Shown here: piece after piece, positions 3,217 through 38,472 of the stretch
How the letters are laid out: each line of letters begins with the position of its first letter
Position numbering within the stretch: the stretch's first letter is position 1
From: Massilia sp. erpn
GTDB taxonomy: Bacteria > Pseudomonadota > Gammaproteobacteria > Burkholderiales > Burkholderiaceae_D
Direction of reading: 5' to 3'
DNA: 64,000 bases
Assembly: GCF_024400215.1 (NCBI RefSeq)
Contig: NZ_CP053748.1
Span: 2,666,001 to 2,730,000 of the forward strand
The notes under the pieces: model-generated
Seen by the model: the letters and a program-made list of their open reading frames with translations, nothing else
Databases searched by the model: none
What the model was told of the DNA's origin: nothing
Translations under genes and position numbers: made by a program

Positions 3217-3671
3217 GCCGGCTGCAGATCAGCGACGATCCGGCCCTGCTCGACATCGGCCTGATCCACCGCTTCCTCAGCGAACAGACGGCGTGGGCCA
3301 GGGATATTCCGCGCGCCACGGTGGAGCGCGCGCTGGCCAACTCCCTGTGTCTTGGCGGCTATCTGAATGGAAGCCAGATCGCTTTCGCCCGCGTCACCAC
3401 CGACCGCGCCACTTTCGCCTATCTGGCCGATGTGTTCGTACTGCCCGCGCAGCGCGGCAAGGGCTACAGCAAGCAGCTGATAGAGGCGGTGCTGGCCCAT
3501 CCCGATCTGCAGGGGCTGCGCCGCTTCATGCTGGCCACCTCCGATGCGCACGGCCTGTACGCGCAGTATGGCTTTGCGCCGCCGGCCCGGCCGGCGACGC
3601 TGATGGAGCGCTATTTCCCCACCATTTACCAGGATCAGGCTACTGCCATTGCATCAGGCAAGGCGGAATAA
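3213..3671 (+). CDS. GNAT-family N-acetyltransferase
   Basis: 152 residues starting at the ATG that overlaps the previous stop (ATGA). The acetyl-CoA binding motif A is visible as VFVLPAQRGKGYSKQLIEAVL (V-F-V-x5-R-G-x-G-x-S), around residues 70-90. Motif B follows with FMLATSDAHGLYAQYGFAP, the usual 'LYxxxGF' element. GNAT enzymes move an acetyl group from acetyl-CoA to an amine; the acceptor cannot be predicted. It is coupled to the NTF2-like gene. The last 32 bases overlap the end of the convergent YfcC-type transporter gene, so the two transcripts are antisense at their ends. Confidence 0.88.
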   Translation: MSRLQISDDPALLDIGLIHRFLSEQTAWARDIPRATVERALANSLCLGGYLNGSQIAFARVTTDRATFAYLADVFVLPAQRGKGYSKQLIEAVLAHPDLQGLRRFMLATSDAHGLYAQYGFAPPARPATLMERYFPTIYQDQATAIASGKAE

Positions 3672-5028
3672 GCAGCAGCAGGGCCAGCGCCAGGTAGATC
3701 AGCTGCAGCGGCACCATCCAGCGCGCCCAGGTCAGCCAGGGAATGCGCGCCAGGGCCAGCACGCCGACGGTGATGCCGGAAGTGGGGATCATGGGCGTGG
3801 TGAACTCGCCGAACTGGTAGGCCAGGATGGCAGTCTGGCGCGTTACGCCCACCAGGTCGGCCAGCGGCGCCATGATCGGCATGGTCAGCGCGGCCTGGCC
3901 GGTGCCGGAGTGGATGAAGAAGTTGATCACAGACTGGATCAGGAACATCTTCTGCGCCGCGAACACCGGGCTGGAAGACTGCACCAGGGGCATCAGGCCG
4001 TGCAGCATGCTGTCGATGATATTGGCATCGCGCGCCAGGATCATGGTACCGCGCGCCAGCGCGATCACCAGCGCCGTGGTCACTAGATCGCGCGCACCCT
4101 GCAGGAAGGACGCCACCATCTCGTCGGTGCCGAGGCGGCCGACGATGCCGACCAGGATGGCCATGCTCAGGAACAGGGCGGCGATCTGCTCGATATACCA
4201 GCCGAACTGCACCACGCCGAACACCATGGCGCCCAGGGTGGCGACGAAGATCCACAGCACCAGGCGGTGCTGCAGGGTCATGCCGCTGAAGCCGCTCAGG
4301 TCGAGCTGCTGTTCCTTGCGCTTTTCGCAGTCCAGCACCCAGGTCGGGCTTTTCTCGGGATGGCGCTTGATGCGCGCCGCATACCACATCAGGAAGACGA
4401 TGGTGACGGCGGTGGCGATGACCCACACGATGATGCGGTAAGCCATGCCGGAAAACACCGGCAGCCCGGCGATGCCCTGGGCGATGCCGACATTGAAGGG
4501 ATTGAGGAAGGCGGCCGAAAAGCCGACCTGCGAGCCGACAAAGGGAATCGACACGCCCACCACCGAGTCATAGCCCAGCGCCAGCGCCAGCGGCACGAAG
4601 ATCAGGATGAAGGGAATCGCTTCCTCGTTCATGCCGAAGGTGGCGCCACCCAGCGAGAACATGGTGACGAAGACCGGAATCAGGGCCGCGCGCACGAAGC
4701 GCGAATGGCTGTGGGCGCGCGCGATGGACTTGATCAGGGCGTCGATGGCTTCGGTTTTTTGCAGCACGGCGAAGGCGCCGCCCACGATCAGCACGAAGCC
4801 GATGATCAGCGCCGCCTCGGCAAAGCCCTTGATGGGCGCCATCATCAGTGCCGCCAGTCCCTGCGGCTTGCTGTCGATATAGTGGAAGGAGGCCGGATCG
4901 ATCAGCTGCTTGCCGTTGACCAGATGGGTATCGTATTTGCCGCCGGGGACCAGCCAGGTCGCCAGCGCGATCAGGGCCAGAATGGCGAACAGCAGGACAA
5001 AGGTATTGGGCAGTTTGAATTTTTTCAT
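3640..5028 (-). CDS. YfcC-family inner-membrane carrier (DcuC-like superfamily), candidate beta-Asp-Arg or amino-acid transporter
   Basis: 462 residues with about 12 hydrophobic segments, starting MKKFKLPNTFVLLFAILAL. The FGMNEEAIPFILIFVPLALALGYD region and GSQVGFSAAFLNPFNVGIAQGIAGL are hallmarks of the YfcC/C4-dicarboxylate anaerobic carrier-like (PF03606) group. That group also contains arginine/ornithine exchangers and related carriers for anionic or zwitterionic amino compounds. The gene lies 21 bp downstream of, and on the same strand as, the zinc hydrolase gene. Together they diverge from an RpiR regulator and a TonB receptor/cyanophycinase operon. From this context, import of cyanophycin dipeptide or its products is a reasonable inference, not something the sequence proves. 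The 3' end overlaps the convergent GNAT gene. Confidence 0.85.
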   Translation of the reverse strand: MKKFKLPNTFVLLFAILALIALATWLVPGGKYDTHLVNGKQLIDPASFHYIDSKPQGLAALMMAPIKGFAEAALIIGFVLIVGGAFAVLQKTEAIDALIKSIARAHSHSRFVRAALIPVFVTMFSLGGATFGMNEEAIPFILIFVPLALALGYDSVVGVSIPFVGSQVGFSAAFLNPFNVGIAQGIAGLPVFSGMAYRIIVWVIATAVTIVFLMWYAARIKRHPEKSPTWVLDCEKRKEQQLDLSGFSGMTLQHRLVLWIFVATLGAMVFGVVQFGWYIEQIAALFLSMAILVGIVGRLGTDEMVASFLQGARDLVTTALVIALARGTMILARDANIIDSMLHGLMPLVQSSSPVFAAQKMFLIQSVINFFIHSGTGQAALTMPIMAPLADLVGVTRQTAILAYQFGEFTTPMIPTSGITVGVLALARIPWLTWARWMVPLQLIYLALALLLLIPPCLMQWQ

Positions 5029-5049
5029 GCGAGTCCTTGGCAGTTCGCC

Positions 5050-6180
5050 TTATTGGCTCAGCAGGTCGCCGGCGCGGTAAGCCTGCACCCCCGCCACCTT
5101 GCCCACGTTCCAGCCGCGCAGCACATGGCGGTGCGCCGTGCGGGCGTAGAAGATGCCATCCACCGTGCAGCGCAGCGGCGTGGTATGGCCGCTCACCGGA
5201 TCGATCACGTCGGCCACCACCTCGCCGGCCTTCAGGCGTTCGCCCAGCTGGCGGTGGTAGACCAGCACCCCCGCATGCGGCACGATGATAGGTTCCGAAC
5301 CTTCCAGCGGCGTCATGGCGCACAGCGGCGCGGGCAGGGCGGCGGCTACGCCGGCCGCATCGCCGTCGATCACGCCGTTCAGGGTCAGGTAGCAGAGCAG
5401 GGCTTCAGCATCGCGTTCGGCCAGCTCGTAGTGCACGTCCATCTCGCCGCGCAGTTCCACCGTCACCGCCATGCAGGATGGTGGAATCGGCGTGGCGGAG
5501 CCGAAATGGCTTTGCAGATCCCACCACAGGCGGCTGCAGGCTTCGTCGAAAGGTTCGCCGCCGGCGGCCAGCGAGAGCAGCACGGCCTGGGCGCCCATCA
5601 GGCGCGCCAGCGGCGCCACGGCCGGCGCCAAGGGCGTGCCGGCGTAGATATGCAGCGTGGCTTCGTTATCGCAATGCAGGTCGAACACGAAGTCGGCATC
5701 GATGGCCATGTCCAGCAGATGCTTTTTCAGCGTTTCGGCATCGCTGGCCGGTTGCCAGCGCGCGATGGACTGGCGCGCATGCGCGCGCACCAGGCCAATG
5801 TTTTCCTGCGCATCGCCGCCCAGCAGGCCGGCCAGCGATTGTTTGAGTTCGTCGGCCACATGCTTGAAGCCGCGGTTGAAATTGATGCCGCTGGCCAGCT
5901 CGAAGCGGCCGAAGGGCGCGCCGTGCACGGCCTGCGCCAGGCCGATGGGATTGGCGGCCGGCACCAGGATGATTTCGCCGCGCACCTTGCCCTCGGCCTC
6001 CAGTGCGATCAGGCGCTTGCGCAGGAACTGGGCCACCAGCATGGCCGGCACCTCGTCGGCATGCAGCGAGGCCTGGATATACACCTTCTTGCCCTGGCCG
6101 GGCGTGCCGAAGTGGAAGCTGTGGAGCGCATAGCTGGCGCTGCTGTGCGGCGCCGAAATCGGATGTGTGTGTGCTTGCAT
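5050..6180 (-). CDS. zinc hydrolase of the succinylglutamate desuccinylase/aspartoacylase (M14-like) family; candidate cyanophycin-dipeptide hydrolase
   Basis: 376 residues from the preferred ATG at 6180. An in-frame ATG at 6222 lacks a ribosome site. Zinc-ligand pattern: SLHADE (H40-x-x-E43) and, after a GINFNRGF substrate-binding segment (N102, R103), FDLHCD with H169. This is the order found in AstE/AspA enzymes. The C-terminal third (about residues 290-376) resembles the beta-rich lid domain of the family. Members cleave amide bonds of N-acyl amino acids such as aspartyl or glutamyl derivatives. As I recall, an enzyme of this M14-like type (CphZ) hydrolyses beta-Asp-Arg, the product of cyanophycinase. 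The neighbouring tandem cyanophycinases make that activity the leading hypothesis. It has no signal peptide, so it is cytoplasmic, downstream of uptake. Confidence 0.85.
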   Translation of the reverse strand: MQAHTHPISAPHSSASYALHSFHFGTPGQGKKVYIQASLHADEVPAMLVAQFLRKRLIALEAEGKVRGEIILVPAANPIGLAQAVHGAPFGRFELASGINFNRGFKHVADELKQSLAGLLGGDAQENIGLVRAHARQSIARWQPASDAETLKKHLLDMAIDADFVFDLHCDNEATLHIYAGTPLAPAVAPLARLMGAQAVLLSLAAGGEPFDEACSRLWWDLQSHFGSATPIPPSCMAVTVELRGEMDVHYELAERDAEALLCYLTLNGVIDGDAAGVAAALPAPLCAMTPLEGSEPIIVPHAGVLVYHRQLGERLKAGEVVADVIDPVSGHTTPLRCTVDGIFYARTAHRHVLRGWNVGKVAGVQAYRAGDLLSQ

Positions 6181-6244
6181 GGGTTGCCCTGTGTTGGCGC
6201 CGCGGTGGAAATTTCGCCCCATTATGTAGCACGATTTTCACAAA

Positions 6245-6356
6245 GTAAATTGATGTAAATATTCCTGCAGAAAAATATTGAGTTTTGCGCATGATGTGCG
6301 TAAAGTCGGATCTAGTTGATTTTTTCGCCACCGTAAATTCTGTAAATCGATTTACA
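6245..6356. promoter_or_regulatory. divergent control region with GTAAAT boxes and a perfect 16-bp palindromic operator
   Basis: The gap between the zinc hydrolase (minus) and rpiR-like gene (plus) carries a perfect palindrome, TGTAAATCGATTTACA, at 6341-6356, just upstream of the regulator start at 6379. Further GTAAAT half-sites occur at 6245-6250, 6255-6260 and 6333-6338. The spacing places one cluster near each divergent start. RpiR/MurR-type proteins bind palindromes in divergent regions next to their own gene, so this is the likely operator set. Assignment to this regulator is inference. Confidence 0.65.
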
Positions 6357-6378
6357 TGCATGCAGTGCCGGGAGAGTA

Positions 6379-7287
6379 ATGAAACCATCCATCGCCGCCG
6401 AAGCTTCCTCGCCTGAAGTGGCTTTCGCCCACTCGGCATTGGGCCGGCTGCTGCTGCGCGTGCTGGCCGACGACGGTTCTTCCCACACCAAGAAAACGCT
6501 GGCGAACTATCTGCTGCGCCATCAGATGCGCGTGACCGCGCTCGGCATCGAGGAACTGGCCGAGAGCTGCAAGGTCTCGACCGCCACGGTCAGCCGCTTC
6601 GCGCGCGACATCGGCTTTCGCAATTACGCCGCCATGCGCGGCGCCGTGGCCGACACCCTGCAGGAAGTGCTGCAGCCGGTGGAAAAACTGCGCAGCTCCA
6701 TCGAACAGCGCCGCCGCACCTCGCCGGTGGCCGAGTCGCTCGAATACGCGCTCGCCAATATCACCACCACGGCCAGCAATCTGGCCCAGCCCCAGATCGA
6801 AGCCGTGGTGCGCAAGCTGACCAAGGCTCGCACCGTGTATGTGATGGGTTTCGGCCTGTCCTCGCATCTGGCGGGCGCCATGGTGCAGCACCTGCAGCCT
6901 TTCTGCGCGCATGTGGTGGAGGTGGTGGGCATAGGAGGATCGGAGGTGGCCGCCGGCCATCTGGTGAATATCTCGGAGAAGGACGTGGTGGTGGCCATCT
7001 CCTTCCCGCGCTATACCGTTGACTGCTGCCGCCTGGCCAGCTTTGCCAGGGACCGTAAGGCCGCCATCGTGGCGCTGACGGATTCGCCGGCCTCGCCGCT
7101 GGCGGCGCTGGCCGACCATCTGCTGTGCGCGCAAAGCGTGCATCCGGTGCTGCCCAGCAGCAGCAGCACGGCCCTGGCCGTGATCGAGGCGCTGGCTGCG
7201 GCGCTGATGGTGTCGAACCGCGGCAATGTGGAAAAAGCAGCCCAGTTAACGGAGGTGATCGCCACTTACCTTTATGGCAAGCGCTAA
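6379..7287 (+). CDS. RpiR/MurR-family transcriptional regulator (HTH + SIS domain)
   Basis: 302 residues. An N-terminal winged HTH of the RpiR type (about residues 20-95) includes RVTALGIEELAESCKVSTAT and VSRFARDIGFRNYAAMR, the usual recognition-helix pattern. A SIS sugar/phosphosugar-type ligand domain follows (about residues 135-270), with VYVMGFGLSSHLAGAMVQHL, VVVAISFPRYT and a SSSSTALAVIEAL phosphate-loop-like region. The gene diverges from the hydrolase-carrier pair and precedes the TonB receptor and cyanophycinases by 47 bp. It is therefore the probable local regulator, acting through the palindrome just upstream. SIS domains usually bind phosphosugars; here the effector may differ. The start ATG at 6379 follows GGGAGAG. 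Confidence 0.9.
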   Translation: MKPSIAAEASSPEVAFAHSALGRLLLRVLADDGSSHTKKTLANYLLRHQMRVTALGIEELAESCKVSTATVSRFARDIGFRNYAAMRGAVADTLQEVLQPVEKLRSSIEQRRRTSPVAESLEYALANITTTASNLAQPQIEAVVRKLTKARTVYVMGFGLSSHLAGAMVQHLQPFCAHVVEVVGIGGSEVAAGHLVNISEKDVVVAISFPRYTVDCCRLASFARDRKAAIVALTDSPASPLAALADHLLCAQSVHPVLPSSSSTALAVIEALAAALMVSNRGNVEKAAQLTEVIATYLYGKR

Positions 7288-7334
7288 GCAAGCGATAATA
7301 AGTACTTCTACAATAAAAAATGGGGATTGACCGA

Positions 7335-10085
7335 ATGAGCAAGCCACACCCGCAGCAAGGCAGCAAGCACTTACCTCTTTCCACTTTGACCCTGTCGGTG
7401 CGCCTGGCGCTCGGCGCGGGCGTCGCCGCCGGCCTGCTGGCCCAGGGCGTGCAGGCGCAGAATGCGCCCGTCCTGCCGCGCGTGGAAATCACCGGTTCGG
7501 CCATCAAGCAGATCGAGTCCGAAACCCCGCTGCCGGTGCAGGTGATCACCCGTGCCGAAATCGACAAGACCGGCGTCACCACGGCGGCTGAACTGATGAC
7601 GCGCATCAGCGCCAACGTGGGCGGCCTGACCGACGGCGCCAGCATCAATGTGGGCGGCGACCAGCGCGGCTTCAACAGCGCCAATCTGCGCGGCATCGGC
7701 ACCTCCTCCACCCTGGTACTGCTGAACGGGCGCCGCATGGCCAATTTCGCCTCGCCCGGCGACGATACCGGCGTGGACCTGAACAATATTCCGGCGGCCG
7801 CCATCCAGCGCGTGGAAGTGCTGCTGGACGGCGCCTCCTCGCTGTACGGCACCGACGCCATCGGCGGCGTGATCAACTTCATCACGCGCAAGGATTTCCG
7901 CGGCGTGGAGCTGAATGCCTACGGCCTGAAAACCGACGAGGGCGGCGCCGGCAAGCGCACCGTGTCCATCAGCGGCGGCATTGGCGACTTGCAGGATGAT
8001 GGCTATAACGTCTTCGCCGTGTTCGATGCGCAGCGCACCGACCGCCTGAGCACTTCGCAGCGCAAATTCGTCTCCGAGTTGCAGGTGCCGCAGCGCCTGG
8101 GCCATCTGCTGTCCAGCTTCACCAGCCCGGGCAACATCCGCCTGAGTTCGGCCCAGCGCGACCATCTGCAGGAGATCGGCTTCCAACTGAACGGCAAGCC
8201 GATCACCAACCGCATGATCAACCTGGCCATCCCGAAATGCAGTCCGCCGGCCAATCTGTATCTGCCTGGCGGCACCGGTGGCCAGGATGCCTGCACCTAC
8301 GATTACATGGGCGACACCGAGCTGTATCCCAAGACCGAGAAGCAGAACCTGCTGAGCCGCGGCGTCTTCAAGATCAATAGCGATACCCAGGCCTATGCCG
8401 AGGTGGCGCTGAGCCGCTCGCGCAGCTACTACGTCGGTTCCGCCGCGCGCGTCACGGCCGCCATCGATTACCGCAAGATCCCGCAACTGGCCAATACCGG
8501 CCTGGATACCCTGGATGAGGAGGATGCGGGCGAACTGGAAGTGCGCGTGCGCCTGAACGAAGCGGGCCGCCGCACCAGTGAACTGACCAGCGAAGGCCAG
8601 CGCTATGTGCTCGGCGTCAGCGGCGTGCTTGGCGGCTGGGACTACGACGTGGGCTTCAACCACAGCGTCAACACCGTGAAGGATAAGGATACCCACGGCT
8701 ACCTGCTGTACAAGGAACTCAAGCAGGGCATCGCCGATGGCCGCATCAATCCCTTCGGCCCATCCAGCCCCGAAGGCCAGGCACTGATCGACAGCATCCA
8801 GGTCAACGACGTGGTGCGCCGCGCGCGCGGCACCATGGACAGCCTCGATATGAAAGCCTCGCGCGCCCTGACCACCCTGGCGGGCGGCGAACTGTCGCTG
8901 GCCGTGGGTGGCGAGGTGCGCCGCGAGCGCACCGATTTCAATCCGTCGGCCCTGCTGATGAGCAATAACATCAACAACGACGATGCACCCGAAGGTGGCA
9001 AGGCCACCAGCGACCGCCGCCGCGTGGTCGGCGTCTTCGGCGAGCTGCTGGCGCCCTTCACCAAGGAAATCCAGGCCCAGATTTCGGCCCGCTACGACCG
9101 CTACCAGAAGGTTGGCGGCGCCCTCAGCCCGAAAGTGGGCCTGAGCTACACGCCGAATAAATCGCTGCTGGTGCGCGCCTCGATGGGCCGCGGCTTCCGC
9201 GCCCCGTCCATGTCGGAGCTGTACCGCCCCACGGTGTACAGCAGCACGGCGACCCTGCCCGATCCTGTCTACTGCGCCACGGTGGAAAACGACTACTCTG
9301 ACTGCGCTGACAACTGGAACACGCGCCGCTACAGCAATGTCAACCTGAAGCCGGAACGCAGCAAGCAGTTCTCGCTGGGCACCGTGATGGAGCCGGGCCA
9401 GCACCTGACCGTCAGCGCCGACTACTGGAATATCAAGCGCACCAATCTGATCAGCGAAATCGGCGATGACATCATCCTCGGCAACCTGACCAAGTACGGT
9501 TCCCTGGTGCACCGCGACGAAGACGGCAAGATCGACTACATCGACCTGCGCAAGGAAAACCGCGGCGCGCAGAAAGCCAGCGGCATCGACCTGGTGGTCG
9601 ACGTGCACAATATCCACACCGGCGTGGGCCGCTTCGGCGCGCACCTGAACGGCACCTATGTGCTGGCCTCCAAGATCCAGACCGCGCCGGGCGACGCTTT
9701 CATCTCCAACCTGAACCGCTTCGTCACCGAAGGCGTGGTGCAGCGCTGGCGCCACACCGTCAGCTTCGACTGGGACCAGGGGCCATTCTCGGCCACCTTG
9801 TCGAACAGCTTCTCCTCGGGCTATGAAGACCAGAACTCGGCCATCAACCCGACCGATGGCAGCGTGGTCAAGGCTAACCACGTGAAAGCCTATTCGCTGT
9901 GGGATATCTCGGGTTCCTACGCCTGGAGCAAGCAGCTCAAACTGCGCGCCGGCATCCAGAATATGTTCGACAAGAGCCCGCCGTACTCCAACCAGGCATT
10001 CCACTTCCTTTCGGGCTATGATCCAAGCTATACCGATCCGCGTGGACGCCGTTTCTATGCCAGCGCGAACTACGCATTCAAGTGA
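7335..10085 (+). CDS. TonB-dependent outer-membrane receptor, probable cyanophycin/peptide importer
   Basis: About 916 residues from the ATG at 7335, preceded at about 10 bases by GGGGA; an in-frame ATG at 7320 is possible. A Sec signal peptide ends at GVQAQ (about residue 36). The plug domain (about residues 45-165) has RVEITGSAIKQ, TLVLLNGRRMA, IQRVEVLLDGASSLYGTDAIGGVINFITRK, all classic plug motifs. The rest is a beta-barrel with GRGFRAPSMSELYRP and NVNLKPERSKQFSLG, ending FYASANYAFK. Such receptors use TonB/ExbBD energy to bring large ligands across the outer membrane. Position directly before two exported cyanophycinases suggests the ligand is cyanophycin oligomer or dipeptide; this is inference. 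Four cysteines in extracellular-loop-like stretches (about residues 305-320 and 650-665) could form loop disulfides. Confidence 0.93.
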   Translation: MSKPHPQQGSKHLPLSTLTLSVRLALGAGVAAGLLAQGVQAQNAPVLPRVEITGSAIKQIESETPLPVQVITRAEIDKTGVTTAAELMTRISANVGGLTDGASINVGGDQRGFNSANLRGIGTSSTLVLLNGRRMANFASPGDDTGVDLNNIPAAAIQRVEVLLDGASSLYGTDAIGGVINFITRKDFRGVELNAYGLKTDEGGAGKRTVSISGGIGDLQDDGYNVFAVFDAQRTDRLSTSQRKFVSELQVPQRLGHLLSSFTSPGNIRLSSAQRDHLQEIGFQLNGKPITNRMINLAIPKCSPPANLYLPGGTGGQDACTYDYMGDTELYPKTEKQNLLSRGVFKINSDTQAYAEVALSRSRSYYVGSAARVTAAIDYRKIPQLANTGLDTLDEEDAGELEVRVRLNEAGRRTSELTSEGQRYVLGVSGVLGGWDYDVGFNHSVNTVKDKDTHGYLLYKELKQGIADGRINPFGPSSPEGQALIDSIQVNDVVRRARGTMDSLDMKASRALTTLAGGELSLAVGGEVRRERTDFNPSALLMSNNINNDDAPEGGKATSDRRRVVGVFGELLAPFTKEIQAQISARYDRYQKVGGALSPKVGLSYTPNKSLLVRASMGRGFRAPSMSELYRPTVYSSTATLPDPVYCATVENDYSDCADNWNTRRYSNVNLKPERSKQFSLGTVMEPGQHLTVSADYWNIKRTNLISEIGDDIILGNLTKYGSLVHRDEDGKIDYIDLRKENRGAQKASGIDLVVDVHNIHTGVGRFGAHLNGTYVLASKIQTAPGDAFISNLNRFVTEGVVQRWRHTVSFDWDQGPFSATLSNSFSSGYEDQNSAINPTDGSVVKANHVKAYSLWDISGSYAWSKQLKLRAGIQNMFDKSPPYSNQAFHFLSGYDPSYTDPRGRRFYASANYAFK

Positions 10086-10144
10086 TGCGCTGTCATGCTT
10101 GTGTAAAGTTTTTGCAATAGAGTTATCAGTGCAGGAAGGGCAAC

Positions 10145-11440
10145 ATGAACTCTTTATTCTTATCGCTTAAACGTCTGGGCACGACTGCGCTGATCGTGCT
10201 CGCCAGTTTCGGCCTGCAAGGCTGCGCCGAGGCGTCCGCCGTGAAGAACACCAAGACCGTGAAAGCGGCGGTGCCGCCGGCCAAGCCGGTGGTGCAGCCG
10301 CCGAAAGGTACACTGGTCATCATCGGCGGCGGCCTGCGCGCCGACAATGCCGAAGTGTGGCAGCGCATCGTGCAGCTCTCGGGCGGCAAGGGCGCGCGCA
10401 TCGCCGTTTTCGGCGCTGCTTCCATCAACCCGGAAAAATCGGCCAACAGCACCATCGCCAAGCTCAATCAGTACGGCGCCGACGCCTTCTTCGTGCCGAT
10501 TGGCGTGATGTACAGCGGCAGCGACTACCGCAAGGCGGCCGAAGATCCGGTGCTGGTGGAAATGATCCGCAACTCCGCCGGCATCTACTTCGCTGGCGGC
10601 GACCAGGCGCGCATCACGCAAGCGCTGGTGCGCGCGGACGGCAGCCATTCCGCCTTGCTCGACGCCATCTGGGATACGTACCGCCGCGGTGGCGTGCTGG
10701 CCGGTTCCAGCGCGGGCGCCGCCATCATGAGCACCACCATGTTCTACGACGCCAAGCCGGTGCTGGACATGCTGAAGATGGGCGTGACCGATGGCCGCGA
10801 AATCGCTCCCGGCCTGGGCTTCATCGGTAACGACGTCTTCGTCGACCAGCACTTGCTGGTGCGCGGCCGCTTTGCGCGCATGATTCCCGTGATGCTGAAA
10901 AAGGGCTACCACATCGGCCTGGGCATCGACGAGAACAGCGCCATGGTGGTCAACTCCGACCGCGATGTGGAAATCATCGGCTACAGCGGCGCGCTGCTGA
11001 TCGACCTCTCCAGCGCCATCACCGACCGCGGCGTGAAAGGCTTCAACATCAGCAATGCCGCCATCAGCTACCTGGACCGGGGCGACAAGTTCAACCTGGT
11101 GACGCGCGCCTTCACTCCGGCGCCGGACAAGGCCGACGGCAAGCTCGATCCGAACCAGCCCGATATGCGCGAACCCGTGTTCACCAACGATATCCTGGGC
11201 AATAACGCGGTGCTCGACCTGATGGGCAACCTGATCGACAACGCCCAGCAGGAAGCCATCGGCATCGCCTTCGGCAACCCGCGCGACCCGTATCCGGACC
11301 TGGGCTTTGAATTCCGCTTCAGCAAAACCCTGAACAGCGTCGGCTACACCTCCAGCGAAGCGGAAGCGTATTCAGTGCTCAAGCTGCGCCTGGACATCCG
11401 CCCCATCCAGCTGCAGCAACCGCTGTACCGTTATAAATAA
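10145..11440 (+). CDS. cphE: exported cyanophycinase (peptidase S51, CphE-like), lipoprotein form
   Basis: 431 residues. The signal peptide ends in a lipobox (LQGC, cysteine near residue 27), predicting a membrane-anchored lipoprotein. A low-complexity Ala/Lys/Pro linker (to about residue 55) leads to the S51 fold: GTLVIIGGGLRADN, then YFAGGDQARITQAL, and the nucleophile elbow AGSSAGAAIM with catalytic Ser189. The C-terminal extension (about residues 310-431) is shared with the next gene and makes the protein longer than intracellular cyanophycinases of about 270 residues. It matches the size of secreted CphE enzymes. S51 cyanophycinases cut cyanophycin into beta-Asp-Arg dipeptides. A good ribosome site (AGGAAGGG) precedes the start. 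It is 59 bp after the receptor gene, likely the same operon. Confidence 0.92.
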   Translation: MNSLFLSLKRLGTTALIVLASFGLQGCAEASAVKNTKTVKAAVPPAKPVVQPPKGTLVIIGGGLRADNAEVWQRIVQLSGGKGARIAVFGAASINPEKSANSTIAKLNQYGADAFFVPIGVMYSGSDYRKAAEDPVLVEMIRNSAGIYFAGGDQARITQALVRADGSHSALLDAIWDTYRRGGVLAGSSAGAAIMSTTMFYDAKPVLDMLKMGVTDGREIAPGLGFIGNDVFVDQHLLVRGRFARMIPVMLKKGYHIGLGIDENSAMVVNSDRDVEIIGYSGALLIDLSSAITDRGVKGFNISNAAISYLDRGDKFNLVTRAFTPAPDKADGKLDPNQPDMREPVFTNDILGNNAVLDLMGNLIDNAQQEAIGIAFGNPRDPYPDLGFEFRFSKTLNSVGYTSSEAEAYSVLKLRLDIRPIQLQQPLYRYK

Positions 11441-11450
11441 AGGCTGAACC

Positions 11451-12674
11451 ATGCTGGCGCTGCGCAAACTCCTCATGCATTTCGCCCTGGCGGCCATGCC
11501 GCTCATGGGCGGCGGCGCCCAGGCGGCGGAAACGCCGAAAGGTTCGCTGGTCATCATCGGCGGTGCCCTGCGCGGCGACAATGCGCCGGTCTGGCAACGC
11601 ATCGTGCAGCTGGCGGGCGGCAAGGGCGCGCGCATCGCCGTCTTCCCCTCGGCGGCGGCCAATCCGGCGCGCTCCGGCCAGTTCATCGTGGGCCGCCTGA
11701 ACCAGCATGGCGCGGACGCCTTCCTGGTGCCGCTGGCGGTCAAGCTGGAAGGCAGCGACTTCCGCAAAGTGGCCGAGGATGCGGCGCTGGCCGCCTCGGT
11801 GCGCTCAGCCGGCGGGGTGTATTTCTCCGGCGGCGACCAGGCGCGCATCACGCAAGCCATGGTCCGCGCCGACGGCAGCCGCAGCGCCCTGCTCGACGCC
11901 GTGTGGGATGTGTACCGGCGCGGCGGCGTGGTGGCCGGCACCAGCGCCGGTGCCGCGATCATGAGCAGCACCATGTTCTACGAGGTGAAAACCGTCTTCA
12001 GCACCTTGCGCAGCGGCGTCACCGAAGGCCGCGAGATCGCGCCGGGGCTGGGCTTTATCGGCGACGATATCTTCATCGACCAGCACCTGCTCACGCGCGG
12101 CCGCTTTGCGCGCATGATTCCAGCCATGCTGAAAAAGGGCTATAAGCTGGGCCTGGGCATCGACGAAAACACCGCCATGGTCATCGACAGCAAGCGCCAG
12201 GTGGAAATCATCGGCTACAAGGGCGCGCTGCTGATCGACCTGACCCGGGCCAGCACCGACCCCAAGGCCATCGGCTTCAATGTCAGCGGCGTCAATCTGA
12301 GCTATCTGGACCGCGGCGACAAATACGATATCGACCAGCGCCGCTTCATTCCCTCGTCGGAGAAGATCGAAGGCCTGCTCGATCCGGCGCGCCCCAGCCT
12401 GAACATGCCCATCTTCACGGCCGACATCCTGGGACCGAACGCCGTCATCGACCTGATGGAAAAACTGATCGACAACGCGCAGAAGGAAGCGGTCGGCATC
12501 GCCATCGGCCACCCATCCGAACCGCTGCATGAACTGGGCTTCGAATTCAGGTTCAGCAAAACCGGCGACAGCGTCGGCTACTCGTCCTCGGTGGCGGAGG
12601 CCTACTCCATCCTCAATATGCGGCTCGACATCCGCCCCATCGAAATACAGTACCCGCTATACCGCTATAAATAA
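11451..12674 (+). CDS. cphE: second exported cyanophycinase (peptidase S51, CphE-like), soluble form
   Basis: 407 residues, clearly a paralogue of the preceding gene along its full length. Shared blocks include WQRIVQL, GGKGARIAVF, GGDQARITQ, REIAPGLGFIG, DQHLL.RGRFARMIP and LRLDIRPI/LPLYRYK-like ends. The nucleophile motif is AGTSAGAAIMS with Ser165. Unlike its neighbour it has a plain Sec signal peptide ending GGAQAAE (about residue 26) and no lipobox cysteine, so it should be periplasmic or secreted. It begins 10 bp after the first cyanophycinase. The pair probably arose by tandem duplication, with one copy anchored and one free. An arrangement with one enzyme acting on intact polymer outside and one on imported fragments is conceivable but unproven. 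Confidence 0.92.
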   Translation: MLALRKLLMHFALAAMPLMGGGAQAAETPKGSLVIIGGALRGDNAPVWQRIVQLAGGKGARIAVFPSAAANPARSGQFIVGRLNQHGADAFLVPLAVKLEGSDFRKVAEDAALAASVRSAGGVYFSGGDQARITQAMVRADGSRSALLDAVWDVYRRGGVVAGTSAGAAIMSSTMFYEVKTVFSTLRSGVTEGREIAPGLGFIGDDIFIDQHLLTRGRFARMIPAMLKKGYKLGLGIDENTAMVIDSKRQVEIIGYKGALLIDLTRASTDPKAIGFNVSGVNLSYLDRGDKYDIDQRRFIPSSEKIEGLLDPARPSLNMPIFTADILGPNAVIDLMEKLIDNAQKEAVGIAIGHPSEPLHELGFEFRFSKTGDSVGYSSSVAEAYSILNMRLDIRPIEIQYPLYRYK

Positions 12675-12723
12675 GGCGCTCTGGGCTAGAATAGCCGGCA
12701 GACTTTTCTACCCAGGAGACCTT

Positions 12724-14148
12724 ATGCCGTTTTCCGCCTTCGCCCGTGCCGGCATCGCCGCCGCGCTGGCGCTGACCAGCTGCGCCGCCATCGCCGCGCC
12801 AGCGCAACCCGCCACCGTCCGCATCGACTACCTCCACAGCGGCAATGCCCTGTCCGAGCATTACGCCATGGAACGCGTGGTGATCGAACCGCTGCCATGG
12901 CCGGGCGATATGTCGCGCACCGTGGACGACACGGATCGCGGCATCAACAAGGTGGAAGTGGTGGATGCGAAAACCGGCCAGCTGCTGTACTCGCGCGGCT
13001 TCTCCACCATTTTCGGCGAATGGCGCAGCACCGACGAAGCGGGCAAGGCCAATCGCGGCTTCAGCGAATCGGTGCGTTTTCCCAAGCCGGAGCAGCCGGT
13101 ACGCGTGCGCATCCTCAAGCGCGACGAACGCAACCAGTTCTCCATCGCCTGGAGCGTGGACGTCGACACCGACGCCCTGGACGTGGTGCGCAAGCAGGAG
13201 CCCGCACCCGCCAAGCCCATCCCGCTGCGCGTGAGCGGCCCCTCGCCGCAGAAGGTCGATCTGCTGATCCTGGGCGACGGCTACACCAAGGCCGACCTGC
13301 CCAAATTCGAACAGACCGCGCGCCGCCTGGCCGACTACCTGTTTACGGTCAGCCCCTTCAAGGAAAGGGCAGGGGACTTCAACGTCTGGGGCTTGGCCGT
13401 GCCGACCCAGGAATCGGGCGTCAGCCGCCCCTCGACCAATGTGCACCACGCCTCCGCGCTCGGCACGCGCTACGACATCTTCGGCAGCGAACGTTACGTG
13501 CTCACCACCGACAACCGCGCCTTGCGCGACATCGCCCAGCACGCGCCATACGAGTTCATCGAAATCCTGGTCAACAACGACACCTATGGCGGCGGTGGCA
13601 TCTACGGCCAGTTCAGCACCGCCGCCGCCAACAGCGACTGGGCCAACTACCTCTTCGTACACGAATTCGGCCACCACTTCGCCGGCCTGGCCGACGAGTA
13701 TTACACTTCGCCCGTCGCCTACGCCACGGGCGGCGAGCGCAGCGAACCCTGGGAGCCGAACGTCACCGCCCTGCGCGACCCTGCGAACGTCAAATGGAAG
13801 AAATTCGTGAAACCCGGCGCGGTATTACCGACGCCCTGGCCCAAAGCCGAATACGAAGAGCACTCGCGCGCCTACCAGAAAACGCGTGCCGAGCTGCGCA
13901 AAGCCAACCGCCCCGAATCCGAGATGAGCAAGCTATTCAAGGACGACCTGGCCTGGACCAATGCATTATTCAGCAAAGCCCCCCACAAGCATGAAGTCGG
14001 CGCTTTTGAAGGCGCCAACTACGAAGCCACCGGCTACTACCGCAGCCAGCAGCAATGCCTGATGTTCGACCGCAGCGAATCCTTCTGTGCCGTCTGCGCC
14101 GACGCCATCAGCGCCACCATCGACCTCTACAGCCGCCCCTCAAAATGA
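12724..14148 (+). CDS. secreted zinc metallopeptidase, M64 (IgA peptidase) family
   Basis: 474 residues from the ATG at 12724, which follows CAGGAGAC; the frame extends further upstream into the previous gene but without coding character. A signal peptide (AALALTSCAAIAAPAQ) is present; the SCAA stretch could also be read as a weak lipobox. The N-terminal domain (about residues 25-165) is followed by the catalytic M64 domain, VDLLILGDGYTKAD, and the zinc motif HExxHxxxGxxDE at H313, E314, H317, G321 and D324-E325, exactly the M64 pattern. A Cys-rich end (CLMF...FCAVC) may form a disulfide. It lies 49 bp after the second cyanophycinase, so it probably belongs to the same operon. It may trim proteins or capping peptides around cyanophycin granules; that role is a guess. 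Confidence 0.9.
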   Translation: MPFSAFARAGIAAALALTSCAAIAAPAQPATVRIDYLHSGNALSEHYAMERVVIEPLPWPGDMSRTVDDTDRGINKVEVVDAKTGQLLYSRGFSTIFGEWRSTDEAGKANRGFSESVRFPKPEQPVRVRILKRDERNQFSIAWSVDVDTDALDVVRKQEPAPAKPIPLRVSGPSPQKVDLLILGDGYTKADLPKFEQTARRLADYLFTVSPFKERAGDFNVWGLAVPTQESGVSRPSTNVHHASALGTRYDIFGSERYVLTTDNRALRDIAQHAPYEFIEILVNNDTYGGGGIYGQFSTAAANSDWANYLFVHEFGHHFAGLADEYYTSPVAYATGGERSEPWEPNVTALRDPANVKWKKFVKPGAVLPTPWPKAEYEEHSRAYQKTRAELRKANRPESEMSKLFKDDLAWTNALFSKAPHKHEVGAFEGANYEATGYYRSQQQCLMFDRSESFCAVCADAISATIDLYSRPSK

Positions 14149-21448: not shown

Positions 21449-21534
21449 ACCTCTTTTATGTGATCGGCGCTGTCGCTGCCGTGGGTCTGCTGGCCTATCT
21501 GGCCGTGGCCCTGCTGAATGCGGAGGAGCTGTGA
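21445..21534 (+). CDS. kdpF: K+-transporting ATPase small subunit KdpF
   Basis: 29 residues, one hydrophobic span ([19 protein letters not shown]) ending NAEEL, typical of KdpF. This lipid-like peptide stabilises the KdpFABC complex in the inner membrane. The start overlaps the previous small frame and kdpA begins one base after the stop. Both position and sequence support the call. Confidence 0.88.
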
Positions 21535-21535
21535 T

Positions 21536-23350
21536 ATGACTACCCAGTCCATCCTTCTTCTGCTGCTCTTCCTGGCCGTGCTGCTGGCGCTTTCCTGGCC
21601 GCTCGGCATCCTGATGGTGCGCGTGGCCGATGGCCGCCCGGTGCCGGGATTTGGCTGGCTGGCCGGTGTCGAGAGGCTGCTGTACCGCGCCGCCGGCGTG
21701 CCGCTGAATCCGGAAAAACAAGGCCAGGGCTGGAAAGCCTATGCCATCGCGCTGCTGGTGTTTAATACCGTGGGCGCTGTCTTCACTTACGCCATCCAGC
21801 GCGTGCAGGCCTGGCTGCCGCTGAATCCCCAGAATATGGGGAATGTCAGCCCGGATTCATCGTTCAACACCACGGTGAGCTTTGTCGCCAACACCAATTG
21901 GCAGGGCTACGGCGGTGAGCAGACCATGAGCTATCTGACCCAGATGCTGGGCATGACGTGCCAGAACTTCTTCTCGGCCGCCACCGGCATCGCTGTCGCC
22001 TTTGCCCTGATCCGCGGCTTCAGCTCGCGCTCGGCCAAGTCCATCGGCAATTTCTGGGTCGATATGACGCGCTCCACGCTGTATGTGCTGCTGCCGCTGT
22101 CCGTCATCTTCGCCGTCTTCCTGACCGGCCAGGGTGTGATCCAGAATATGTCGGCCTACAAGGAAGTGAGCCTGCTCGATCCCGTCACCTACACCGTGCC
22201 GAAAACCGGCGCCGATGGCCAGCCCGTGCTTGATGCCAAAGGCCAGGCCGTGACCGAAGAGCAGACCGCCACCACCCAGACCCTGGCCATGGGCCCGGTC
22301 GCTTCGCAGGAGGCGATCAAGCTGCTGGGCACCAATGGCGGCGGCTTCTTCAACGCCAATTCGGCGCATCCATATGAAAATCCGACGGCGCTGTCCAACT
22401 TCTTCGAGATGATCGCCATCTTCGTGATTCCTGCCGCGCTGTGCTTCACCTTCGGCCAGATGGTGGGCGACCGCCGCCAGGGCTGGGCCGTGCTGGGCGC
22501 GATGACCTTGCTCTTCGTGGTCGCCGCCTGCGCCGTGATGTCGGCCGAGCAGCAGCTCCATCCCGCCCTGCAAGCCATGGGCGTGGACCAGGGCAGCAGC
22601 GCTCTGCAAGCCGGCGGCAATATGGAAGGCAAGGAAACCCGCTTCGGCATCAGCGCCACCACGCTGTTCGCGGCTGTGACCACGGCGGCGTCCTGCGGCG
22701 CGGTCAACGCCATGCACGATTCCTTCACGCCGCTGGGCGGCATGGTGCCGATGCTCTTGATGCAGCTGGGCGAGGTGGTGTTCGGCGGCGTCGGCTCGGG
22801 CCTGTACGGCATGCTGGTCTTCGCCATCCTGGCCGTCTTCATCGCCGGCCTGATGATCGGCCGCACGCCCGAATACCTGGGCAAGAAGATCCAGTCCTAT
22901 GAGATGAAGATGAGTTCCATCGTCATCCTGGTGACGCCGACCCTGGTGCTGCTGGGGACCGCGCTGTCGGTGATGCTGGACGTGGGCAAGGCCGGCGTCG
23001 CCAATCCGGGCGCGCACGGCTTCTCGGAAATCCTGTACGCCTTCAGCTCGGCCGCCAACAACAACGGCAGCGCCTTCGCCGGCCTGTCCGCCAACACGCC
23101 TTATTACAACGTGATGCTGGCGATCGCCATGTGGTTCGGCCGCTTCGCCGTGATTGTGCCGGTGCTGGCCATTGCCGGTTCGCTGGCCGGCAAGCAGCGC
23201 CTGCAAGCCAACTCCGGCACCATGCCGACCCATGGTCCGATGTTCATTGGCCTGCTGGCCGGCATCGTGGTGCTGGTCGGTGTGCTGAACTATGTTCCTT
23301 CGCTGGCCCTTGGTCCGGTCGTGGAACACCTGCAAATGTATATGAAGTAA
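21536..23350 (+). CDS. kdpA: K+-transporting ATPase subunit A (potassium channel-like subunit)
   Basis: 604 residues and about ten membrane spans. The selectivity-filter repeats of the superfamily of K+ transporters are visible, notably [21 protein letters not shown] near residue 265, with other loops such as [20 protein letters not shown] (about residue 135) and [12 protein letters not shown]. KdpA binds and conducts K+ in the high-affinity, ATP-driven KdpFABC pump. The start at 21536 lies one base after kdpF. An ATG further upstream at 21518 lies inside kdpF and is rejected. kdpB follows after 12 bp with an AAGGAGA ribosome site. Confidence 0.97.
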
Positions 23351-23362
23351 GGAGAACTCTCC

Positions 23363-25474
23363 ATGTCGCAAGCCAATGCAACGCAAAAAGAGATGACGCT
23401 GCCGGTGACGCCCGCGCCGCGCCTCAAGCTGTTCGATTCGCAGCTGGTGGTTCCGGCCATCGTGGATTCTTTCCGCAAGCTGAGTCCTCGCACCCAGTTG
23501 CGCAGCCCCGTGATGTTCGTGGTGTATGTGGGCAGCATCATCACTACGCTGCTGTATCTGCAGTCGCTGGGCGGGAAGGGGGAAGCCAGCTCCGGTTTTA
23601 TCCTCGCCACCGCCGTCTGGCTCTGGTTCACCGTGCTGTTTGCTAACTTCGCCGAAGCCATGGCCGAGGGCCGCAGCAAGGCGCAAGCCGCTTCGCTGCG
23701 CAACCTGAAGCAGAGCGTGATCGCCAAGAAGCTGGCCAGCGCCAAATACGGCACCACCTGGCTGCCTTGCCCGGCCAGCGATCTGCGCAAGGGTAATTAC
23801 CTGCTGGTCGAGGCGGGCGATGTGATCGCCATCGACGGCGAAGTGGTGGAGGGCGTGGCCACGGTGGACGAAAGCGCCATCACCGGCGAATCGGCGCCCG
23901 TGATCCGCGAGTCGGGCGGCGACTTTTCCGCTGTCACCGGCGGCACCCGCGTGCTGTCGGACTGGCTGGTGGTGAAAGTCACGGCCAATCCGGGCGAGAC
24001 CTTCCTCGACCGCATGATCGCCATGGTGGAAGGCGCCAAGCGCAAGAAAACGCCGAACGAGATCGCCCTGACCATCCTGCTGGTGGCGCTGACCATCGTC
24101 TTCTTGATCGTCACCGTGACCCTGCTGCCGTTCTCCCTGTTTTCGGTGGAAGCGGCGCAATCCGGCACGCCGGTCACGATCACGGTGCTGATCGCCCTGC
24201 TGGTCTGCCTGATTCCCACCACCATCGGCGGCCTGCTGTCGGCCATCGGCGTGGCGGGCATGAGCCGCATGATGCAGGCCAATGTGATCGCCACTTCCGG
24301 CCGTGCCGTGGAAGCGGCGGGCGATGTGGACGTGCTGCTGCTGGATAAAACCGGCACCATCACCCTGGGCAACCGCCAGGCGTCTGCCTTCTATCCCGCG
24401 CCTGGCGTCAGCGAGCAGCAGCTGGCCGACGTGGCCCAGCTGTCTTCCCTGGCCGATGAAACGCCGGAAGGCCGCAGCATCGTGGTGCTCGCCAAGCAGC
24501 GTTTCAATATCCGCGAACGCGAGATGGCTTCGCTGCACGCCACCTTCCTGCCCTTCTCGGCCAATACCCGCATGAGCGGCGTGGACGTGGACGGCCGCGA
24601 GCTGCGCAAGGGCGCGGCCGACGCCGTGCGCAAATACGTGGAAGCGGCGGGCCAGAGCTATCCGGCCGAGGTGGTGAAAGTCACCGACGAGGTGTCGCGC
24701 CGCGGCAGCACGCCGCTGGTGGTGGCCGAGAATGGCCGCGTGATGGGCGTGGTCGAGCTGAAGGACATCGTGAAAGGCGGCATCAAGGAGCGTTTCGCCG
24801 AATTGCGCCGCATGGGCATCAAGACCGTGATGATCACCGGCGACAACAAGCTGACCGCCGCCGCTATCGCCGCCGAAGCGGGCGTGGACGACTTCCTGGC
24901 CGAAGCCACGCCGGAGGACAAGCTGAAACTGATCCGCAGCTACCAGGCCGAAGGCCGCCTGGTGGCCATGACCGGCGACGGCACCAACGATGCGCCGGCA
25001 CTGGCCCAGGCCGACGTGGCGGTCGCCATGAGTTCCGGCACCCAGGCCGCGAAGGAGGCGGGCAATATGGTCGATCTGGATTCGAATCCGACCAAGCTGC
25101 TGGAAATCGTCGAAATCGGCAAGCAGATGCTGATGACGCGCGGTTCGCTGACCACCTTCTCGATCTCCAACGATATCGCCAAATACTTCGCCATCATTCC
25201 GGCGGCCTTTGTCGGCACCTATCCGCAACTGAAGGCGCTCGACGTGATGCAGCTGGCCAGCCCGAATTCGGCCATCATGTCGGCGGTGATCTTCAACGCC
25301 CTGATCATCATCTTCCTGATCCCGCTGGCATTGAAAGGCGTGCAGTACCGCGCCATCGGCGCCAGCGCTCTGCTGCACCGCAATTTGCTGGTCTACGGCG
25401 TGGGTGGCCTGATCCTGCCCTTCATCGGCATCAAGCTGATCGACATGCTGCTGTCCGCCCTCAACCTCGTTTAA
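23363..25474 (+). CDS. kdpB: K+-transporting ATPase subunit B (P-type ATPase)
   Basis: 703 residues. The phosphorylated aspartate is D328 in [12 protein letters not shown]. The actuator motif TGESAPV is near residue 174, the nucleotide-domain KGAADAV near 415, and the hinge motif [16 protein letters not shown] near 530. KdpB hydrolyses ATP and drives K+ uptake through KdpA. Membrane helices include the [13 protein letters not shown] segment with the conserved proline. It lies in the standard order kdpF-A-B-C. Nothing unusual was seen. Confidence 0.97.
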
Positions 25475-25486
25475 ACAGGAGCCACC

Positions 25487-26071
25487 ATGGCATCTCCATT
25501 ACGTCCCGCTCTCGTCCTGTTCGGCGCCCTGACCCTGGTTTGCGGCGTGCTGTATCCCTTCGCAGTCACCGGCATCGGCAATGCGGTCTTTCCCGCGCAG
25601 GCGGGCGGCAGCATCGTCGAAGCCGGCGGCAAGCCGGTCGGCTCGCAGCTGATCGGCCAGGCTTTCAGCTCGCCCCAGTATTTCTGGGGCCGCCCATCGG
25701 CCACCGCGCCGATGGCCAATAACGGCGCCGGCTCGGGCGGTTCCAATCAGGGACCACTGAACCCGGCCCTGAGCGACAGCGTGAAAAGCCGCATGGCCGC
25801 ACTGAAAGCGGCCGATCCGGACAACACCGCGCCGGTGCCGGTCGATCTGGTCACGGCCTCGGGCAGCGGCCTCGATCCGGAAGTCAGCTTGGCGGCAGCC
25901 TACTACCAGGCCAAGCGCGTGGCGGCGGCGCGCGGCATGACACATGAGCAGGTGCGCGGCCTGATCGACGCCAACGCCAGCAAGCCCGCGCTGGGCTTTT
26001 TCGGTGAGCCGCGCGTGAATGTGCTGGCGCTGAATCTGGCGCTGGATGGTAAAACCACGCATACTCGCTAA
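25487..26071 (+). CDS. kdpC: K+-transporting ATPase subunit C
   Basis: 194 residues. One N-terminal membrane span ([23 protein letters not shown]) is followed by a periplasmic domain with [34 protein letters not shown], and a C-terminal [20 protein letters not shown]...[10 protein letters not shown] segment. All are conserved in KdpC, the subunit that stabilises ATP binding and complex assembly. The ribosome site ACAGGAG lies 5-11 bases before the start. A strong hairpin without a T-run follows the stop. Confidence 0.97.
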
Positions 26072-26081
26072 AACGATGGAA

Positions 26082-26108
26082 ACCGGGGACGGCGGGTCCG
26101 TCCCCGGT
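26082..26108 (+). other. perfect 11-bp stem hairpin between kdpC and kdpD
   Basis: ACCGGGGACGG and CCGTCCCCGGT pair perfectly around a 5-base loop, with no following T-run. In an mRNA this would be very stable and could protect the kdpFABC 3' end or reduce read-through into kdpDE, setting pump and sensor levels apart. Confidence 0.7.
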
Positions 26109-26130
26109 GTGCGCAAAAACATGATTGAAT

Positions 26131-37092: not shown

Positions 37093-38472
37093 ATGGTGTT
37101 GAAGTGGGCGGCCGCCATGGGATTGGCCGCATTGACGGCGGGCTGCGCGAGCACCCAGCCGCAGTCGGCGCAGGGGCCGAAAAACATCCTCCTCTTCGTG
37201 GCTGACGGCATGGGCATCAATACCATGACCGCGGCGCGCATCTTCGCCGTCGGCGAGGAAGGCCAGCTGGCGCTGGACGCCTTGCCGGAAGCGGCCTATG
37301 TCAAAACCTATTCCGCCAATATGCAGGCCAGCGACGGCGCGGCTGCGATGTCGGCCTATCTGAGCGGCGAAAAAACGGCGAATGGCGTGCTGGCCATGAG
37401 CGATTGCGGCACGCCGCAGGCGCGTCCTGTGCCGACCTTGCTGGAGCTGGCCAAGCAGCGCGGCCTGGCGGCTGGCCTTGTCAGCAATGGCAGCGTGACC
37501 GATGCCTTCAGCGCGGCGGGCTATTTCCACCATTGTCCGGCAGGTGTGCATCTGACTGCCGCGCAGGCCAGCAGGCAGGCGCAGTCGGCTGCCGCCGCGT
37601 TGGCGCCGGGCGGCGCGGGCTATAACACGGCGCTCGGCAACGGACTGGATGTGCTGCTGGGCGGCGGTGCGCGCGACTTCAGGCAGCGCGCCGATGGCCG
37701 CGACCTGCTGTCCGAGCTGCGTGCCAAAGGCTATGTTCAGCCTACGAACCTGATGGAACTGAATGCGCTGAAACCGGCTGCCGGCCAGCGCCTGCTTGGC
37801 CTGTTCGCCGACGAGGCGCTGACTGGCGGCAGCACGCGCGACACCAGCCGTCAACCCAGCCTGGCGCAGATGACGCAGCGCGCCATCGCCGGCTTGTCCA
37901 GCAACGGCAAGGGTTTCCTGCTGGTGGTCGGCAACCGCCACATCGAAAAAGCGCTGGCCGATTCCAGCGCCCGCACTGCGCTGGAAGAAGTGCAGGCTCT
38001 CGACCACGCCCTGCAAGCGGCCATCGATGAAATGCAGCGCCGCGATCCTGGCCTGAAAAACACCCTGATCGTCGCCACCTCGACGCATGACAGCACGCTG
38101 GTGCTGAATGGCTATTCCCGGCGCACCGGCAAGACCACGGTGCAGGAACCCGGCGTGCTGGGGCTGCTGAAACGCTACGGCGACGGCAAGCCAGGCAAGG
38201 ATCTGGATGGCGCCCCGTACACTATCATCGGTTTCGGCAACGGCAGTAAGCGCGTGCAGGGCCCGCGCAACAGCGGCTCCGTGCTGGACGATGCCACTGT
38301 CAGCGCCAGCGGCTACGCGCAGGAAGCCGTGGTGCGCACCGCGCCAGGCAGCGCCACGCCGGGCGGCACCGACGTCTGGCTGGGCGCCATCGGTGCGCGC
38401 GCCGAAGACTTCCGCGGCACCATCGACAACACCCGCGTGTTCAACCTGATACGGAATGCGGCCGGCTGGTAA
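37093..38472 (+). CDS. lipoprotein pseudo-alkaline phosphatase (PhoA-like, catalytic residues lost)
   Basis: 459 residues, homologous along its length to the PhoA encoded next. A lipobox LTAGC (C18) replaces the cleavable signal. The first metal ligand remains (D38 in FVADGMG). The nucleophile Ser is Gly82 (ASDGAAAM where PhoA has TTDSAPSM). The HAT metal site is DAF. The VEGGKIDHALH metal block reads VVGNRHIEKALA. The TADHDHT pair is TSTHDST. The final GETHGGGD histidine is missing (SATPGGTD). The frame is intact, with normal codon use, a good ribosome site (AGAGGAGCAGG) and coding up to the stop. It is therefore a maintained non-enzymatic paralogue, perhaps a binding or regulatory protein, rather than a decayed gene. 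Confidence 0.85.
   Translation: MVLKWAAAMGLAALTAGCASTQPQSAQGPKNILLFVADGMGINTMTAARIFAVGEEGQLALDALPEAAYVKTYSANMQASDGAAAMSAYLSGEKTANGVLAMSDCGTPQARPVPTLLELAKQRGLAAGLVSNGSVTDAFSAAGYFHHCPAGVHLTAAQASRQAQSAAAALAPGGAGYNTALGNGLDVLLGGGARDFRQRADGRDLLSELRAKGYVQPTNLMELNALKPAAGQRLLGLFADEALTGGSTRDTSRQPSLAQMTQRAIAGLSSNGKGFLLVVGNRHIEKALADSSARTALEEVQALDHALQAAIDEMQRRDPGLKNTLIVATSTHDSTLVLNGYSRRTGKTTVQEPGVLGLLKRYGDGKPGKDLDGAPYTIIGFGNGSKRVQGPRNSGSVLDDATVSASGYAQEAVVRTAPGSATPGGTDVWLGAIGARAEDFRGTIDNTRVFNLIRNAAGW

Follow-up and report, generated by a model that had tools for sequence, protein, structure and literature searches.

Within a 64,000-nucleotide stretch of the genome of the soil-type bacterium Massilia sp. 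erpn (assembly GCF_024400215.1, contig NZ_CP053748.1, forward-strand positions 2,666,001 to 2,730,000; hereafter the window, part of a 6.15-Mb genome in a single contig), a block at 3640..14148 probably contains a regulated locus through which cyanophycin from outside the cell is taken up and catabolised. The acquisition of cyanophycin, or of its dipeptide beta-Asp-Arg, is the best reading because the block combines leader-bearing cyanophycinases, a CphZ-type hydrolase, a co-conserved TonB-dependent receptor and carrier, and a shared operator region. All seven genes that an initial annotation had placed here were recovered with coordinates and family matches. We infer the substrate, the ligands of receptor and carrier, the role of RpiR as binder and the order of steps as follows. 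At the cell surface or in the periplasm, two exported S51 enzymes (CphE-like) would cut the polymer down to beta-Asp-Arg and short fragments; these fragments, or scarce dipeptide, would cross the outer membrane by way of the TonB receptor; the DcuC/YfcC carrier would bring beta-Asp-Arg into the cytosol, where CphZ would split it into Asp and Arg; and Arg could then enter ordinary catabolism, arginine succinyltransferase genes being present (AstA occurs twice in the genome). TGWAA-N6-TTWCA sites in the intergenic gap would let an RpiR-family regulator govern the two arms that diverge from it. The parts are common in the family, and together they would make up a complete route, open to testing, by which cyanophycin outside the cell ends as Asp and Arg in the cytosol. 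It also proposes a ligand for a TonB-receptor subfamily, and the regulator-operator pair could report cyanophycin sensing.

The enzymes that would open this route, S51a (10145..11440) and S51b (11451..12674), are encoded in tandem on the plus strand, 10 bp apart, and on sequence and model evidence are members of the cyanophycinase family with intact active sites. Both exceed the curated equivalog cut-off of TIGR02069 (126.6 bits), at 135.5 bits for S51a and 145.8 for S51b, and both have the cyanophycinase fold. Every residue on a check list drawn from PMC3235067 (catalytic Ser, His and Glu; binding Gln, Asp and three Arg) is present: Q154, S189, D234, Q235, H236, R240, R242, R245 and E263 in S51a, the catalytic set being Ser189, His236 and Glu263, and Q130, S165, D210, Q211, H212, R216, R218, R221 and E239 in S51b, with Ser165, His212 and Glu239. 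Ser189 and Ser165 had already been named for the pair, and both are the nucleophile positions. The description of the two as cyanophycinases with export-type leaders is supported, the hydrophobic leaders being judged by eye here and in many relatives. Among the matches listed, the nearest named relatives of S51b, at 98% identity, come from Pseudoduganella violacea and Massilia sp. BJB1822. The leader of S51a (10145-10250) contains a possible lipobox, LQGC, also recognised by eye and common to the near-identical locus L071; no similar lipobox was seen by eye in any other S51 leader listed, so the two paralogues may sit apart, one anchored and one soluble. As far as the accessible part of PMC3235067 describes it, CphE of Pseudomonas (CphEal) shares with them the Ser-His-Glu set, the binding Gln, Asp and Arg and a length near 400 residues, and has an export leader where the S51 proteins have their putative ones. 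The locus differs in carrying a tandem pair, and CphEal has Thr223 where the S51 proteins have Gln, as does CphB, a comparison that uses the published residues of CphEal in place of an alignment.

The predicted cytosolic hydrolase is encoded on the minus strand at 5050..6222, although its likely start is Met15 at 6180, the point at which conservation begins. Its HADE motif at residue 54 and its His183 are in place, and we take these residues to be the zinc ligands. The catalytic glutamate is likewise present, Glu256 lying opposite the E251A site of 8eip. By sequence and by fold the protein is nearest to characterised CphZ, the enzyme reported to hydrolyse cyanophycin dipeptides in Acinetobacter baylyi (PDB 8ein, 8eip; PMC10206079, PMC10687191). 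The prediction of an AstE/AspA-type zinc enzyme acting as a CphZ-type dipeptide hydrolase was thus borne out to the extent that this is, as judged from sequence and model, a CphZ family member with an intact active site. It differs from A. baylyi CphZ in adjoining leader-bearing cyanophycinases, a carrier and a receptor, and in lying 1.9 Mb from the genome's cphA. Given the CphZ match, and since IaaA has no match in the genome and IadA none above cut-off, the dipeptidase of the locus would be CphZ and not IadA or IaaA. CphZ relatives at L112, L113, L114, L118 and L119 stand in or beside amino-acid ABC-transporter-type gene sets (recognised by Pfam at L112 and L113, by similarity at the other three) in genomes that mostly have no recognised cyanophycinase, an arrangement that suggests uptake of ready-made dipeptide.

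Only 21 bp separate the CphZ gene from that of the carrier (3640..5028, minus strand), an inner-membrane protein that had been described as YfcC-type. Its membership of the DcuC family stands (Pfam DcuC, 339.8 bits), but its 382.8 bits against the NCBIfam YfcC model (PRK11588) fall below the equivalog cut-off of 500. We propose it as the importer of beta-Asp-Arg, or as an Arg exchanger; the carrier gene adjoins CphZ in many module loci, and no solved structure related to it by sequence was found.

The gap between the CphZ and RpiR genes contains a perfect 16-bp palindrome, TGTAAATCGATTTACA, at 6341..6356, together with two related sites: TGTAGCACGATTTTCA at 6225..6240, which matches TGTAA-N6-TTACA at 8/10 and is kept in relatives, and TGTAAATATTCCTGCA at 6254..6269, which lies 29 bp from the first and scores 8/10 in the near-identical L071. 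Using a motif and gap that were fixed after the window palindrome had been viewed, and after a first look at gaps of 2-9, a TGTAA-N6-TTACA site of at least 9/10 occurs in 24 of 33 loci that have both RpiR and the receptor, a count that overstates independence because related Janthinobacterium loci remain after redundancy filtering without gaps. Other gaps from 0 to 12 give 0 or 1 such locus, and 300 Markov simulations averaged 0.36 and never exceeded 3. No gap-6 site of at least 9/10 was found in loci that lack receptor and RpiR (0/26) or upstream of argH (0/51), and none of 41 S51 loci without CphZ, duplicates included, carries the operator at 9/10. Furthermore, pairs of sites (at least 8/10) spaced by 29 bp occur in 18 of the 33 loci, the next spacing in 3, and such pairs are found in loci named Pseudoduganella, Massilia, Janthinobacterium, Duganella and Undibacterium. 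Sixteen named loci were also picked by hand: in 12 of them the top gap-6 site reaches 9-10, in the other four it reaches 8, and eight have the 29-bp pair.

On this evidence the putative operator is shared by the divergent arms and conserved in relatives. The RpiR-family regulator (6379..7287, plus strand; HTH_6 and SIS domains by Pfam) is proposed as its binder, since the motif accompanies rpiR and resembles HexR-type sites. A genome-wide RpiR regulon was considered and rejected: a relaxed pattern occurs at 11 places in the genome, the same number as in a backwards control, so no regulon is claimed. The only perfect TGTAA-N6-TTACA among these is the one at 6341-6356. Promoter-like sites numbered 3 against a shuffled mean of 1.9, and terminator-like sites 4 against 9.7.

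It is informative to consider how often the module recurs. Searches for cyanophycinase, CphZ, the receptor and CphA covered one set of 294 family genomes. Of these, 135 have a cyanophycinase match and 129 a CphZ match (E 1e-20 or better), with both in 115, cyanophycinase only in 20, CphZ only in 14 and neither in 145, a co-occurrence with a Fisher p of about 1e-43, uncorrected for kinship. The 135 include a separate cyanophycinase class, at about 205-277 bits, which lies beside a cphA1 in several genomes. Gene neighbourhoods were followed in two sets that share genomes and hence are not independent: 59 of 60 fetched regions, chosen around listed CphZ or S51 matches and not at random (the genome's own cphA locus, L111, was excluded), and 80 named loci, the best of at least 546 confirmed S51 relatives. 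S51, CphZ and receptor occur together in 27 of the 59 regions, 16 of them at the argH-parC site and 11 elsewhere, and in 36 of the 80 named loci, 24 at argH-parC and 12 elsewhere, although two of these 12 are probably argH-parC loci as well (L163 because its contig equals in length that of the argH-bearing L090, L162 by analogy). Of the 80 named loci 27 carry RpiR, as do many of the 59 regions. Away from argH-parC the order YfcC-CphZ-RpiR-receptor-S51 is kept, for example at L182, L207 and L228-L230. The initial annotation had suggested looking for co-occurrence in related genomes, and there the core genes do recur with their order kept, so that their grouping is not due to chance.

Some relatives depart from this order. 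At L120-L123 the module is rearranged, with a YfcC-like carrier, receptor, S51 and CphZ (for example L122:2579-13194); L122 also has an M20 peptidase, an AraC regulator and an enolase-superfamily (MR_MLE) protein that could be a dipeptide epimerase. In another family of the class, L250 (genome G662) has an S51 protein with an export-type leader (34% identity) near an RpiR regulator (44%), and two small proteins nearby look by eye like amino-acid binding proteins; this arrangement may extend the link between S51 and RpiR beyond the family.

The receptor gene (7335..10085, plus strand, with a further in-frame ATG at 7320) encodes a plug and barrel and ends 59 bp before S51a. A family search listed 150 receptor matches, and those no more than 10 kb from CphZ or from an S51 on the list were counted as near; the test used 89 S51 matches below 160 bits among those listed and 150 CphZ matches minus four fragments, and the receptor classes were cut at gaps in the bit scores after the listing had been viewed. 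Among these listed matches, proximity was found for 42 of the 69 that reach at least 1201 bits (61-100% identity), for 36 of 43 in the class of 722-965 bits (45-52%), for 6 of 7 in that of 591-611 bits (40-45%) and for none of the 31 that do not exceed 563 bits (37-41%). At E 1e-100 the subfamily is present in 149 of the 294 family genomes and was not found outside the family, the single match among 369 genomes of the class being the window genome itself. The receptor that had been assigned to the locus is co-conserved with the module genes, and its subfamily often adjoins CphZ or S51.

We consider it unlikely that this receptor is unrelated to the module, serving for example a siderophore and merely being located here. 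Among solved structures its nearest relatives are CirA, BtuB and siderophore receptors, chiefly through the plug, and close relatives stand alone in some genomes, both of which would fit such a role. Against it, the subfamily tracks CphZ and S51 at several chromosomal sites, the rearranged ones at L120-L123 included, whereas the weaker homologues listed do not, and the gene lies in an arm that starts at the operator-bearing gap. The stand-alone relatives, of 60-78% identity, lie away from module genes at L131-L138, L140, L141, L143 and L145, in genomes that have a cyanophycinase, and mostly CphZ, elsewhere.

A role in cyanophycin acquisition must be weighed against several observations that do not favour it. 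Partial modules are common, the receptor or RpiR being missing from many CphZ or S51 loci. Across the three upper receptor classes, 35 of the 119 listed matches have neither CphZ nor any listed S51 within 10 kb, and 13 of 18 unlinked ones that were inspected have no module gene beside them; as to the other five, G210 and G067 adjoin a previously unlisted S51, G009 adjoins an RpiR gene on a short contig, and the open reading frames (ORFs) of L142 and L144 are poorly read. All 26 genomes with an unlinked match of the top class carry a cyanophycinase match somewhere, among the matches listed. None of 22 receptor loci without RpiR has a gap-6 site of at least 9/10; these loci often keep one weaker site at 8/10 (mostly TGTAGCACTATTTTCA), and 6 of the 22 have a match with gap 9. 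A dipeptide as small as beta-Asp-Arg can pass through porins, which makes it less than obvious that a receptor is required. Finally, the best structure match of the S51 proteins is 7uqv, whose title, ‘pseudo-CphB’, means that likeness to it is no proof of activity. That title, the breadth of the S51 family and the S51 peptidases acting on a peptidyl-nucleotide antibiotic that are described in the accessible part of PMC9239234 would all be compatible with S51 and CphZ-like enzymes acting on other beta-aspartyl or acidic peptides, such as isoaspartyl debris or peptidyl-nucleotide compounds. We regard such substrates as distinctly unlikely here, and cyanophycin as the probable one.

The seventh gene, encoding an M64 peptidase (Pfam M64, 393 bits; HEFGH at residue 313), lies on the plus strand at 12724..14148, the ORF listed from 12529 being over-extended. 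The initial annotation counted it as a partner, and its strand, its export-type leader and its position 49 bp downstream of S51b would suit a peptidase that frees cyanophycin or its carrier proteins. Such a partnership now appears very unlikely, since the distribution of M64 follows the argH-parC site and not the module: it is found in 27 of 28 argH/parC-site regions but none of 31 others, and in 47 of 52 named loci at argH-parC but 2 of 28 elsewhere (49 of 80 in total), these two being L162 and L163. It also occurs with S51 where CphZ is absent. We therefore rejected M64 as part of the module and treat it as a positional neighbour. Of the receptor and M64, which in the earlier view together set the locus apart from intracellular storage systems, the receptor is co-conserved and M64 drops out.

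It is also worth considering where the polymer would come from. No cyanophycin synthetase had been seen in the block, from which scavenging of foreign polymer was argued. The first statement is true of the block, but the genome encodes a full-length CphA1 (C1:4571494-4574040; 1001 bits, cut-off 850) 1.9 Mb from the locus, in tandem with a 726-residue CphA-like protein (G000:C1:4569281-4574040, L111). The argument is weakened accordingly, and a restriction to foreign polymer does not follow; by the usage of PMC10206079, in which a scavenger-type genome lacks cphA1, this genome is not of that type. Pfam identifies an ABC exporter-type protein, a LacI-type regulator, an Hsp70-like protein and an exonuclease beside the cphA genes, three ORFs nearby (604, 509 and 542 residues) match no Pfam family, and no cyanophycinase was recognised among these neighbours. 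The export-type leaders still point to polymer outside the cytosol, whether foreign, kin-derived or both.

One possible if doubtful account, compatible with extracellular acquisition and differing from it in the polymer source, is that the exported enzymes recover polymer lysed from the bacterium's own population. It draws on the two synthetase-type genes, on the window pair being the genome's only two cyanophycinase matches, and on CphA being encoded, at E 1e-120 or better, by 248 of the 294 family genomes. On the other side, sequence cannot tell foreign polymer from own, and the known environments of bacteria using exogenous cyanophycin include soil and fresh-water sediment (PMC10206079). 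More speculatively, and fairly improbably in our view, Oxalobacteraceae like this one might make cyanophycin without a recognisable cytosolic cyanophycinase and use an RpiR-controlled, TonB-driven module to mobilise polymer outside the cell, as a shared, lysis-released nitrogen currency instead of a private store. If true, this would bear on the report that only 2.8% of cphA1-bearing beta-proteobacteria have a cyanophycinase (PMC10206079). In Herminiimonas, two genes for cyanophycin synthetase are reported but no cyanophycinase (PMC5670224), and a Janthinobacterium genome note counts its cyanophycinase as part of storage metabolism (PMC5690324). The presence of a genomic synthetase together with cyanophycinases that all look exported sharpens the question, raised by PMC10206079, of how cyanophycin-making beta-proteobacteria break the polymer down.

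The idea of a cyanophycin-utilisation locus is itself known; the new features are the receptor inside a CphZ/CphE module and the operator. As cited in PMC10206079, Ben Hania et al. described a locus of cyanophycinase, iadA and a transporter. The same clustering of cyanophycinase, isoaspartyl dipeptidase and transporter is found here, with the differences, as far as that citation goes, that CphZ replaces IadA, that a TonB receptor and an RpiR regulator with its operator are present, and that the genome has cphA1. A 2012 report on Citromicrobium sp. JLT1363 (PMC3400609) comes close in that a TonB receptor gene lies near a cyanophycinase gene and cyanophycin is proposed as a possible substrate; its accessible text concerns the neighbourhood only, with no mention there of CphZ, a carrier, a regulator or conservation. 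The accessible parts of two further reports propose scavenging through a secreted cyanophycinase in Pseudoalteromonas tunicata (PMC2536512) and extracellular cyanophycin use in Thalassotalea (PMC7564069). Our literature search found no description of a locus with CphZ, CphE, TonB receptor and RpiR, or of the operator, a weak absence as few subscription papers were covered, and no paper joining at least three of RpiR family, TonB-dependent receptor, peptide utilization and operator.

Elsewhere in the window, 21518-28872 encodes KdpA, a P-type ATPase (KdpB by position) and a KdpD sensor kinase, assigned by Pfam, as an ordinary potassium-uptake operon. A tandem pair of alkaline phosphatase genes with overlapping ORF ends lies at 37093-39880, and the large and small subunits of ribonucleotide reductase are encoded at 52126-56230, the large subunit having two ATP-cone stretches.

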